From an uncultured Flavobacteriales bacterium (lineage in GTDB: Bacteria > Bacteroidota > Bacteroidia > Flavobacteriales_D > Parvicellaceae), in assembly GCA_905480225.1 (NCBI GenBank), contig CAJQPO010000102.1:1-34202 (forward strand): a stretch of 34,202 bases of DNA, written 5' to 3'. Under the pieces are notes generated by a model. That model was given only the letters and a program-made list of their open reading frames with translations. It was not told the origin of the DNA and did no database searches. Both the position numbers and the translations under genes were made by a program. Below are positions 31,648 through 34,202 of this stretch, one piece after another (the stretch's first letter is position 1; each line of letters starts with the position of its first letter).

Positions 31648-31929
31648 CTATACATCATTGCTGAATTCATCATAAATCTGCAAGAATGATTCCGGGTGCC
31701 CCATCATAAAATCATAATGCTCTGTTGACATTAAAGCTAGCCACTGGCAAATGCGTTCTTTAGTCACACTATTCACTTTCGCCTGCTGAATTAAACTCAA
31801 AAGTAAGTCCATAAAATCCCCATGTTCACGTTGCAAGAGGAAAATGGCATAACGGATATGGAAATCTGGATGAAATTGTTCATCGAACCGCTCATCATCA
31901 AGCATTTCTTCAATGGGATTCTTCATCAT
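31648..31929 (-). CDS. Small acidic helical protein of unknown function, coupled to DUF932 gene
   Basis: I do not recognise this 93-aa protein. It has no signal peptide or TM segment, is strongly acidic (EEMLDDERFDEQFHPDF near the start) and is predicted helical throughout, with FLLQREHGDFMDLLLSLIQQ as a likely amphipathic helix. Its ATG overlaps the stop of the DUF932 gene by 4 bp (31926-31929), so the two are translationally coupled and the proteins may act together. The size and acidity are compatible with an inhibitor, antitoxin-like or adaptor protein, but that is speculation. Confidence 0.65.
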   Translation of the reverse strand: MMKNPIEEMLDDERFDEQFHPDFHIRYAIFLLQREHGDFMDLLLSLIQQAKVNSVTKERICQWLALMSTEHYDFMMGHPESFLQIYDEFSNDV

Positions 31930-32756
31930 GAATCAATTTCATTTTTAAGAAAAATCATTGCCTTTTTATTTACTTTATTGCCTTCACTAAAAGGGTTACC
32001 AAATAAACTTGTGGTTGTCCTTCCGGTAGTGAAGTGAGTAACGCCGTTAAATAACCCCCAATAATTAAAACCCAGTTCTGCAATTTCACGATCTATAGAA
32101 AATCGCAATTCTCTGCGTTTTCGGTCTATTTTATGACCATCATTACCTGAATTTTTTGCAGGCAACAAATGCTTTATTAATCGATCTATTGAGCTTTTAG
32201 ATAATACTATTTTAGTCCATTTGGTCATCAGGCTATATAATTGATCTCTTTCTTCATGGTAATTCCTAATAACCTTATCTAATATGTGTTCATCGAAACT
32301 ATTATTTGACAGGTGACGCATGTTTAATAAACGAAGTGGAGTAGTAAATTGATTTTCACACCTTAATAGAACATTAGTAAAAGAAATAAACAATGCACTA
32401 GAACCATCATGTGAGTTGCCAATTAACATATAATCTGCCGTTGCGTTACCGCAAACATTAAGGGGTCTAGCGCTATTTGGAAGACACGCTTCATTTAATT
32501 TTAAATACGCAATGACTCTTTTACCTTTTCTAAATTCCTGATAACCAACAAGACTATACCCCGTTTTAAGTACAACCCTATTGACCAATTCTGTAAAATC
32601 TTTATTGGTAAATAAACGGTATTGATTACTTCGCAATCCCAGTAACTCTCCAGAATCGTTTCTTACTATGGCACTGCGGTTAGCTATAGTTTTTTTGTTG
32701 ATCTTAATCGGTGCACGAACAGCTTCCCAATTCAAAGTTTTCTTCATCGCTTTCAT
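31926..32756 (-). CDS. DUF932-family protein (phage/plasmid-associated)
   Basis: This 276-aa protein has the pattern of the DUF932 family (phage/plasmid-like proteins, function unknown): an N-terminal RSAIVRNDSGELLGLRSNQY in which a bound-in-place residue is followed by a tyrosine loop, then a FRKGKRVIAYLKL strand, a SHDGSSALFISFTNVLLRCENQ centre, and a helical C-terminal half. DUF932 genes are common on phages, plasmids and integrated elements, where they often lie near recombination or defence genes. It is cytosolic. A second ATG three codons in is an alternative start. It overlaps the small acidic gene by 4 bp and is 131 bp downstream of the coiled-coil protein. Confidence 0.75.
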   Translation of the reverse strand: MKAMKKTLNWEAVRAPIKINKKTIANRSAIVRNDSGELLGLRSNQYRLFTNKDFTELVNRVVLKTGYSLVGYQEFRKGKRVIAYLKLNEACLPNSARPLNVCGNATADYMLIGNSHDGSSALFISFTNVLLRCENQFTTPLRLLNMRHLSNNSFDEHILDKVIRNYHEERDQLYSLMTKWTKIVLSKSSIDRLIKHLLPAKNSGNDGHKIDRKRRELRFSIDREIAELGFNYWGLFNGVTHFTTGRTTTSLFGNPFSEGNKVNKKAMIFLKNEIDS

Positions 32757-32795
32757 AGGCCTTATTTTAATTGATTCTTCAATCTATTAAGCGAC

Positions 32796-32814
32796 AACGT
32801 AATCTTTTTACGTT
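32796..32814. terminator. Short perfect hairpin upstream of the DUF932 gene
   Basis: AACGTAA (32796-32802) pairs with TTACGTT (32808-32814) around TCTTT, in the 131-bp gap between the coiled-coil gene and the DUF932 gene. It could end or attenuate the upstream transcript or be an operator; no T-tract follows on the minus strand. Confidence 0.25.
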
Positions 32815-32887
32815 CTTCTTATTCCTGAATGCTTTAAGAACTTAATCGAACTAAATAATGACCAATGAAACTACTCTAAGATAACCA

Positions 32888-34081
32888 TCAATCTATGTCA
32901 TCTAATGATTTTGGAACTACTAATTCTCTAATTTGCGCTTGAGCATTCAGCTTATTATGCTCGTTCGAGAGCTTTTCAATATCGATTTCTTTTTTCCTTC
33001 GTTCCGTCGACGGATTTAGCTTTTCTGCTTTCTCGAATTCTTTCATTGATTGTACAAAATCTTCTGGCAATTCACTTTCAGCTAATCTTAACAATTCCAA
33101 CATGTGGTTAGCCATATACTGATCAATTTGAACTCTGCGCTTCGTTGTATGTGCAAACTTCCCAATAATTCTGCACAATGCTGTGCGATCTTCGGGACTT
33201 AGCTTGTCTGCAAATTCATACTCCTCAATTTTCTTTAATGATAACAATACCGGTTCAAGTGCATCCTTTGTTATGACATAAACATCATAGCTTCCCATGT
33301 TATAATGAAATGTATCGATTACATCAACGGTATTTGAGGGTACAACTAAATAAATCTCTTTCTTAACGTTGCTTTGTTTAGCATACTTGCTTGCTTGTTC
33401 TGCTTGATTCTTGATGTAAGTTGGAAAGTTCCCCAAATCATCACTACTTGGTGACTTCGCATCAAATACAATAATTTCTCCACAAATCTCAATAGGATTG
33501 TCTGGTTTGCCTCTAAAAGGCACAGAATCAAGATAAGTAATGGTGTGTTTTGCACAAAGCCTTTTCATCTCTTGCTCAATATTTGTTTCGTGCTGCTGCC
33601 AGGTCGTCTTTTTATTTTCAAATTCCAACTCTTTTTCTTGTACACGAGTATCATTAACTCGTTGCTTTTCTTCCTTTAATTCAACATACGCATTGTTCAA
33701 ACGATCTACATTCTTGTTATATGTTTCCGTTTTTGTTAATTCACTATTTTTCATTTTCGCCAGTTCATCTTTACATTTCTGTAGTTCAGAAGCAGTATTA
33801 GCAAGCTTCTCCTTTATCGAAGTACTATCAGAGCTTAGTTTTGTATATGCTACTGTTGCAGCTTGCAACTTATCGTCTAATGCTAAAATTCTTTCAGCAT
33901 CCGTTGCCGTAATTTTTTCTAGATCTCCTAATCGCTCTTTATAGTTTTGTAATTCTTTTAAAAGAATGGCATATTCTTCTATAGCATCATAGGACAAGCC
34001 CCTTACCCCGGACCAACCAAATATTCGTTTCCACAAACTAACCGTCTTAACACTTTCAAAAAACAAACTCAACTTATTCAT
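32888..34081 (-). CDS. Coiled-coil protein with PD-(D/E)xK nuclease-like motif (RmuC-reminiscent)
   Basis: This 397-aa protein begins with a short hydrophobic/basic stretch (SLFFESVKTVSLWKRIFGW), then a coiled coil at about residues 33-175 rich in Glu, Lys, Leu and Asn. The next segment reads GKPDNPIEICGEIIVFDAKSP (191-211, split in use): Asp194, then Asp207-x-Lys209, the spacing of a PD-(D/E)xK nuclease core as in RmuC (PD....DAK followed by a Tyr-containing helix, here YIKNQAEQASKYAK). A beta-strand run (EIYLVVPSN, YDVYVITKDAL) and a helical C-terminus follow. Nuclease activity is inferred from this motif only. It is not RmuC proper, since the flanking family blocks differ. It starts 10 bp after the end of another minus-strand frame. 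Confidence 0.65.
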   Translation of the reverse strand: MNKLSLFFESVKTVSLWKRIFGWSGVRGLSYDAIEEYAILLKELQNYKERLGDLEKITATDAERILALDDKLQAATVAYTKLSSDSTSIKEKLANTASELQKCKDELAKMKNSELTKTETYNKNVDRLNNAYVELKEEKQRVNDTRVQEKELEFENKKTTWQQHETNIEQEMKRLCAKHTITYLDSVPFRGKPDNPIEICGEIIVFDAKSPSSDDLGNFPTYIKNQAEQASKYAKQSNVKKEIYLVVPSNTVDVIDTFHYNMGSYDVYVITKDALEPVLLSLKKIEEYEFADKLSPEDRTALCRIIGKFAHTTKRRVQIDQYMANHMLELLRLAESELPEDFVQSMKEFEKAEKLNPSTERRKKEIDIEKLSNEHNKLNAQAQIRELVVPKSLDDID

Positions 34082-34091
34082 CTATTACGTT

Positions 34092-34202
34092 TTATGCAAC
34101 AAACCCAATTCTACTATCGGATTCTGATTCATTAAAAAAATTCTCTTTTATACCATTTGATTGCAAGTTATACAAATCAGCTAAGGTCATGGGAGCTCCT
34201 GA
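34092..34202 (-). CDS. Partial reading frame running off the window, C-terminal 36 residues
   Basis: On the minus strand an uninterrupted frame enters at the window edge and stops with TAA at 34092-34094, ten bases before the coiled-coil gene starts. It reads ...GAPMTLADLYNLQ, then NGIKENFFNESESDSRIGFVA. If read from its internal ATG it would be a 32-residue peptide, but the close spacing to the next gene makes the end of a larger co-transcribed gene likelier. The family cannot be recognised from this piece. Confidence 0.4.
   Translation of the reverse strand, partial: SGAPMTLADLYNLQSNGIKENFFNESESDSRIGFVA

Follow-up and report, generated by a model that had tools for sequence, protein, structure and literature searches.

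An unnamed coiled-coil, nuclease-type family of Bacteroidota as a candidate stand-in for RmuC, with a four-gene cluster in one genus

CoCoNuTs combine an AAA+ protein with an McrC-type nuclease that carries a coiled coil, and for RmuC, which is found in most Bacteroidia and keeps inversion at short inverted repeats in check, the reaction is to our knowledge still unclear. RmuC is reported to be SOS-induced in Vibrio cholerae and Escherichia coli (PMC5963079, PMC11002266), and ShdA of the Shield system, an RmuC-domain protein, is reported to defend Pseudomonas (PMC10270631). The protein considered here, of 397 amino acids (aa), is encoded at the end of a 34,202-nucleotide stretch of DNA from an uncultured Flavobacteriales bacterium (hereafter the window), which is one entire contig (C102) of a 129-contig draft genome and stops at position 34202. 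We judge it somewhat likelier to be true than false that this protein is a DNA-damage-response, nuclease-type stand-in for RmuC that was recruited into a four-gene cluster in the window's genus. The main interest extends beyond the coordinates of that cluster: an unnamed nuclease-type family seems to take the place of RmuC, and one species shows a natural exchange of the two bodies. Codes beginning with G, g and L are the labels of this analysis for genomes, genera and loci. The gene and its parts are:

32888..34081, minus strand: 397-aa protein ('fam0') of an unnamed Bacteroidota coiled-coil / PD-(D/E)xK family (open reading frame (ORF), family search, AlphaFold2 models)
33548..34015, minus strand: long helix, the coiled-coil part, residues 23-178 (AlphaFold2; predicted local distance difference test score (pLDDT) near 90 across residues 41-120 and lower elsewhere)
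33212..33604, minus strand: restriction-endonuclease-type domain, residues 160-290 (domain model mean pLDDT 80.5; VIA-align Z 10.3 to Cdn1 and 8.9 to McrC)
33500..33502, minus strand: codon of D194, acidic residue of the P-D-N motif (D35 in domain numbering), invariant in 25 aligned domains
33455..33463, minus strand: codons of D207-A208-K209 (D48, A49 and K50 in domain numbering), invariant in 25 aligned domains

An earlier note, made from the letters of the window, had proposed a coiled coil and a nuclease core for this protein, and the AlphaFold2 models agree with it on both. When the domain model was searched with Foldseek, the best match was McrC (6hz4_N; E 1.2e-3, probability 0.99) and none was found at E <= 1e-3. 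VIA-align returned Cdn1 at Z 10.3, Can2 at 9.2 and McrC at 8.9, a moderate margin, since by the tool's own guide models that match nothing clearly usually reach a best Z of 7 to 8; most of its 50 rows were restriction-endonuclease-fold proteins, judged by their titles. With this modelled fold and D...(D/E)xK residues, the protein has what defines the PD-(D/E)xK superfamily, and the active-site-like P-D-N and D-A-K-S-P motifs are kept in all 25 aligned domains of the family. A fold search with the full-length model (mean pLDDT 64.5) brought up nothing useful. A phmmer search of the Protein Data Bank (PDB) with one RmuC found a single, unrelated protein at E 0.11, so that an RmuC was hardly to be expected among the fold matches. 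As modelled, the coiled coil is followed by the PD-(D/E)xK domain and then by returning helices, the same layout that has been described for RmuC (PMC1189080). No Pfam or NCBIfam match above cut-off was found for the 397-aa protein, and its family lacks a model in the releases of both that were searched; a PDDEXK_1 match in one member (L105) was weak (E 0.074) and was not counted. The models point to a coiled-coil PD-(D/E)xK nuclease-type protein of an unnamed Bacteroidota family that would cleave DNA, and we hold this jointly with its role as a stand-in for RmuC, as probable to the same modest degree.

Members of the family were found in 13 of 60 relatives (the window's own genome included) and in three of 28 genera, in 11 of 395 sampled genomes of the class, and in seven of 395 in a phylum sample, two of these seven lying outside the class. 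The class count comprises real matches, six genomes (G300, G382, G411, G440, G445 and G575) having been dropped because their sole match was a weak coiled-coil stretch; the copies in three of the 10 class carriers (G559, G628 and G639) are partial and sit at contig ends. The distribution of the family and that of RmuC are largely exclusive. Of 37 genomes in the window's taxonomic family, its own included, 13 carry the unnamed family and 14 carry RmuC, with none carrying both and 10 carrying neither (Fisher p 3.5e-4, descent ignored). Likewise, RmuC is present above cut-off in one of the 10 other class genomes that carry the family, compared with 278 of 390 class-wide, or, when the window's genome is counted, in one of 11 carriers compared with 277 of 379 (p 2.4e-5, descent again ignored), where the class samples of 395 genomes for the family and 390 for RmuC are presumed, without row-by-row confirmation, to be nearly the same draw. 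A p value computed by genus was set aside, as g80 contains genomes of both kinds.

The unnamed family and RmuC also occupy the same slot. In genus g4 the family gene sits between umuD-umuC and a nitroreductase-like gene in all six family-bearing genomes (six of the seven g4 genomes read), and the variable position X of the order umuC-umuD-X-nitroreductase-like is held by RmuC in G005 (g4), G008 (g7) and G010 (g9). RmuC adjoins umuD in G006 (g5) as well, where the nitroreductase-like gene follows after five other genes. PF00717 is matched by the UmuD-type protein; the other two products we take to be UmuC and nitroreductase-like. The RmuC positions for G004, G005, G006, G008 and G010 agree with PF02646 coordinates. 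A place beside umuDC fits the SOS induction of RmuC elsewhere. Across four loci (L133:6218-10125, L135:6009-9913, L137:2343-11923 and L160:7316-11107), the slot was seen to hold RmuC types of about 413 aa (g4/g7) or 372 aa (g5/g9), or the unnamed family. Within g4 the likeness extends to the N terminus: the top 19-residue hydropathy in the first 60 residues, by which alone an N-terminal anchor was judged, is 2.3-3.5 in four g4 family members and 2.3-4.0 in four RmuC proteins, compared with 0.07-0.66, and no hydrophobic start, in all 12 members measured outside g4.

The RmuC gene of G005 is a mosaic. Over residues 1-63 its product shares 59% identity with the beginning of the 397-aa-family member of G033, as opposed to 31-32% with the starts of g7 RmuC proteins, and the alignment of the G005 and G033 starts scores 172, compared with a mean of 25 (standard deviation 10, largest 70) in 1000 block shuffles; the body of the protein is 79-80% identical to g7 RmuC. 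At the DNA level, with a query of 1392 bases comprising 150 bases upstream and the G005 gene, the upstream part together with the first 63 codons (nucleotides (nt) 8-339) pairs with G033 at 74% over 340 columns and nt 361-1345 with G008 at 77%, placing the junction between nt 339 and 361, at about codons 63-71. All six proteins encoded by flanking genes of G005 are nearer to G033 (65-90%); against G008, five of the six are at 43-67%, below the identity of the RmuC body, and the sixth (116 aa) is at 84%. A tree of the six flanking genes, midpoint-rooted and with G008 as a long branch, sets G005 beside G033 (96/96), nested among the family-bearing g4 genomes. The simplest reading of these sequences is that in G005 the unnamed body gave way to an RmuC body of g7 type while the anchor stayed. 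Because the 12 members measured outside g4 have no hydrophobic start and the four in g4 do, the g4 arrangement itself probably arose by the reverse step, in which the unnamed body was set onto an RmuC-type anchor. We propose more tentatively, and with rather less than even confidence, that the RmuC-type SOS nuclease body is an exchangeable cassette, of which three bodies (two RmuC types and the unnamed one) would stand behind similar anchors and be swapped both ways by intragenic recombination beside umuDC, with the anchorless unnamed body working in an ATP-driven four-protein DNA-processing machine in the window's genus.

Several observations weigh against a replacement of RmuC by the 397-aa family. 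As judged by profile comparison, the catalytic domain of the family is without detectable sequence homology to RmuC: no PF02646 match is listed for any member scanned, and hhalign gave E 0.09 (probability 0.6%) and 0.1 against two divergent RmuC types, which as a positive control match each other at 4e-12 (30 RmuC proteins were picked, one short one was dropped, and L041, a wrong ORF, was removed for this comparison). In the window's own genome the nitroreductase-like gene is not accompanied by an RmuC slot, and neither umuDC nor RmuC was seen beside such a gene in the genomes of g1, g2 and g3 that were read (G000, G003, G004, G011, G012 and, at a contig end, G001). The window's own protein lacks a hydrophobic anchor, its top hydropathy being 0.66. 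One genome, G406, carries both the family and RmuC, and among the 15 genomes with completeness of 90% or more and contamination of 5% or less, seven have the family, three have RmuC, none has both and five have neither (p 0.2). The exclusion p values take no account of descent, and kinship of the genomes makes them overstate the evidence. In addition, the 10 of 37 genomes with neither gene indicate that cells can do without the function, that something else supplies it, or that the genes fell into gaps of the drafts. Finally, the family and RmuC lie at different loci in g80, where no in-place swap was seen. In that genus, G313 (L178:2316-3647) has the family and no RmuC above cut-off, and the genomes of L175, L176 and L177 share RmuC at another locus. 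A sub-cut-off PF02646 match in G313 (E 4.9e-4, 19.8 bits) fell on the family member itself, whose direct Pfam scan is without RmuC, and was not counted as homology; a hidden Markov model comparison of the family with RmuC matched mostly coiled coil and was not used as evidence.

Three further genes make up the cluster in the window:

34092..34202, minus strand: AAA+ ATPase, C-terminal 36 aa, cut by the contig end (97% identity to residues 322-357 of the whole G002 protein)
31926..32756, minus strand: DUF932 protein, basic, 276 aa (PF06067 E 1e-15, phrog_1221 3.9e-23, isoelectric point (pI) 9.9)
31648..31929, minus strand: acidic 93-aa protein (pI 4.6), with a 4-bp overlap with the DUF932 gene

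The earlier note had described four genes on one strand, with a 10-bp gap, a 4-bp overlap, a DUF932 member and a small acidic partner, and this description stands. ORFs of 93, 276 and 397 aa and a 36-aa open frame all lie on the minus strand; the gap between the ATPase tail and the 397-aa gene (34082-34091) and the overlap of the DUF932 and 93-aa genes (31926-31929) are exact; PF06067 matches above cut-off; and the 93-aa protein has a charge of -11, compared with +18 for the DUF932 protein. The conserved module proposed there also finds support in the congeners G001 and G002, the other members of the window's genus among the 60 relatives searched, in which the order of the four genes is identical (three of three genomes of the genus, the G001 contig ending within the 93-aa gene). 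The cluster was seen in this genus only, and no Bacteroidota-type promoter pattern was found within the window. A fortuitous pile-up in one genus, in which a stand-alone repair nuclease has come to lie beside functionally unrelated ATPase, DUF932 and 93-aa genes, would account for the 131 bp that separate the DUF932 gene of the window from the 397-aa gene, for the presence of DUF932 within 6 kb in just 3 of 26 family loci (25 genomes), all three in the window's genus, and for the ATPase relatives of nine other genomes, which stand alone at 10 of 10 loci, with no 397-aa family member, DUF932, 93-aa or RmuC gene on the stretches read. For eight of the 26 family loci, less than 2 kb is available on at least one side, and some neighbors are unseen. 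Against such a pile-up, the order is kept in two other genomes whose proteins range from 93% (397 aa, G002) down to 48% (93 aa, G001, over 60 residues) identity to the window, as are the short gaps between the ATPase and 397-aa genes and the 4-bp overlap. The ratios of nonsynonymous to synonymous substitution rates (dN/dS; NG86) between the window and G002 are 0.049 (397 aa), 0.138 (DUF932) and 0.062 (93 aa), indicative of purifying selection on these three whole genes. Based on the common order and the low dN/dS, the four-gene set appears to be more than a chance arrangement, and we regard the fortuitous explanation as unlikely, though it deserves to be kept in view.

The ATPase is complete in both congeners and was read whole at L021:7067-8140, where it matches PF00004 (AAA) at E 1e-9. 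Relatives of it occur at E <= 1e-8 in 12 of 299 genomes of the order, three of them of the window's genus, and in 21 phage records, 11 of these of Pseudomonas. DUF932 relatives were found in five of the 60 genomes, three of the window's genus together with G045 and G055, which have no member of the 397-aa family. The occurrence of the DUF932 family on phages and plasmids, stated in the earlier note, was borne out by searches of both; a pattern scan of viral contigs found none, and no PDB chain was related to DUF932 at E <= 1. A partnership of DUF932 with nucleases as a rule was considered and set aside, an annotated PD-(D/E)XK neighbor being present in one of 11 DUF932 regions, a weak result given that many neighbors are labeled 'hypothetical protein'; that region, L162:6010-7554 of Emticicia plasmid pEMTOL01 (typed conjugative), has an annotated PD-(D/E)XK nuclease-like gene directly after the DUF932 gene. 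In three g2 genomes a DUF2130 protein, presumably of a coiled-coil nuclease type, is encoded 33 bp from the 397-aa-family gene (L024:9824-11101, L025:10320-11597 and L026:10055-11332) and has a weak PADLOC match to LmuB. DUF2779, according to one report a family of RNase H-like exonucleases in which one part resembles PD-(D/E)XK (PMC3985635), lies within 6 kb of the 397-aa family in six of 26 loci, in g1, g2 and beside a second copy in G508, which compared with the three loci for DUF932 makes it the more lasting neighbor. Examples from three genera are L023:8241-9728, L022:6396-7898, L024:11154-12641 and L100:6453-8450. The DUF2779-associated members cluster in the family tree at 90/91, under the tool's mark for firm support, with the second copy of G508 as a long branch.

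A defence role, which the earlier note raised, or a link to mobility was not supported. An anti-phage or anti-plasmid unit, in which the AAA+ protein and an McrC-like coiled-coil nuclease would restrict incoming DNA while the DUF932 and acidic proteins sense or restrain it, would be in keeping with the nuclease fold near McrC, with the ATPase gene directly before the nuclease gene in all three congeneric genomes (the window's by its tail alone), with the defence of Pseudomonas by the RmuC-domain ShdA, as given in the Shield report (PMC10270631), and with the single G508 paralogue that lies among HNH, DUF2779, WYL-type and SMC-like genes. However, the PADLOC matches are all weak, namely JetC for the 397-aa protein (2.6e-4, on the coiled coil), mad8 (5.6e-5) and TRIP13 (1.4e-4) for the ATPase, Cas4 for the neighboring DUF2779 protein (1.2e-4), LmuB for the DUF2130 neighbor in g2, and one 4TM effector match for a gene further off (0.0027), and neither the DUF932 nor the 93-aa protein had a PADLOC match. 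The matches of the ATPase are to AAA of the Cdc48/BCS1 type, with AAA_5, which we take to be the McrB-type model, at E 0.2. The 397-aa protein has no match among 50,697 phage or 72,556 plasmid records, and none was found in IMG/VR by a scan with two short peptide patterns. Flanking genes are common to the window and G002 on one side and to G001 and G002 on the other, and no mobile or defence families were recognized among the ten other window genes scanned against Pfam. Co-occurrence of the 397-aa and DUF932 families, which the earlier note had named beforehand as the check on its proposal, also turned out against it, the two genes being found apart in all but the three loci counted above. We consider a defence role for the window's cluster possible but do not favor it, and rate it as quite improbable. 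The second, distant copy of the family in G508 (G508:C1, L100:779-11099) lies beside HNH, DUF2779 and WYL-type regulator genes and beside genes for two further proteins, one a P-loop protein of 887 aa (AAA_29, weakly matching LmuB) and the other of 263 aa, weakly matching JetD. That locus is a possible defence island, and given this paralogue some members of the family may have a defence role.

As a stand-in for RmuC, the 397-aa protein would do the job that RmuC does in most Bacteroidia, as an SOS-linked enzyme acting on aberrant DNA structures, and the two would be functionally equivalent. Its build suggests a nuclease head carried on a coiled-coil rod. This rod is probably membrane-bound in g4, where the catalytic body has a hydrophobic N-terminal anchor of the RmuC type. 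Where this anchor is missing, in the window's genus, the AAA+ ATPase, as a proposed remodelling or loading motor, may place the nuclease, the basic DUF932 and acidic 93-aa proteins may form a DNA-binding or regulatory pair, and the four proteins would act jointly. What looked like a candidate defence unit shifts toward DNA repair or recombination. A body without detectable kinship that takes RmuC's slot on the same anchor would amount to a natural experiment, in which the traits shared by the two bodies reflect the needs of the job.

Among described systems, the DUF932 / TIGR03299 phage-plasmid protein corresponds to one gene of the cluster through PF06067 (58.6 bits, cut-off 23), but TIGR03299 (LGT_TIGR03299) stays below its cut-off (63.5 bits, cut-off 110.7), the context is chromosome-like, and the association with the nuclease is confined to the window's genus. 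McrBC and CoCoNuTs share with the cluster an AAA+ gene followed by a coiled-coil nuclease gene, and McrC is among the top fold matches, whereas by Pfam the AAA+ protein of the window's genus does not look McrB-type (PF00004 at E 1e-9, AAA_5 at E 0.2) and no modified-base reader domain was recognized. Shield ShdA of Pseudomonas belongs to the same protein class, with a PD-(D/E)xK (RmuC) domain, and is set apart, in a comparison with its description (PMC10270631), by the lack of a PF02646 match and of defence evidence for the 397-aa protein. RmuC (PF02646, COG1322) differs in its catalytic domain, to which that of the 397-aa family, with its P-D-N...D-A-K-S-P signature, is not alignable by profiles, and the protein of the window's genus differs further in lacking the hydrophobic anchor and in having AAA+, DUF932 and 93-aa neighbors. 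Yet RmuC and the unnamed family have in common a coiled coil, a PD-(D/E)xK domain and returning helices, a slot beside umuDC in sister genera, an anchor stretch common to both within g4, and a distribution in which the one is largely found where the other is not.

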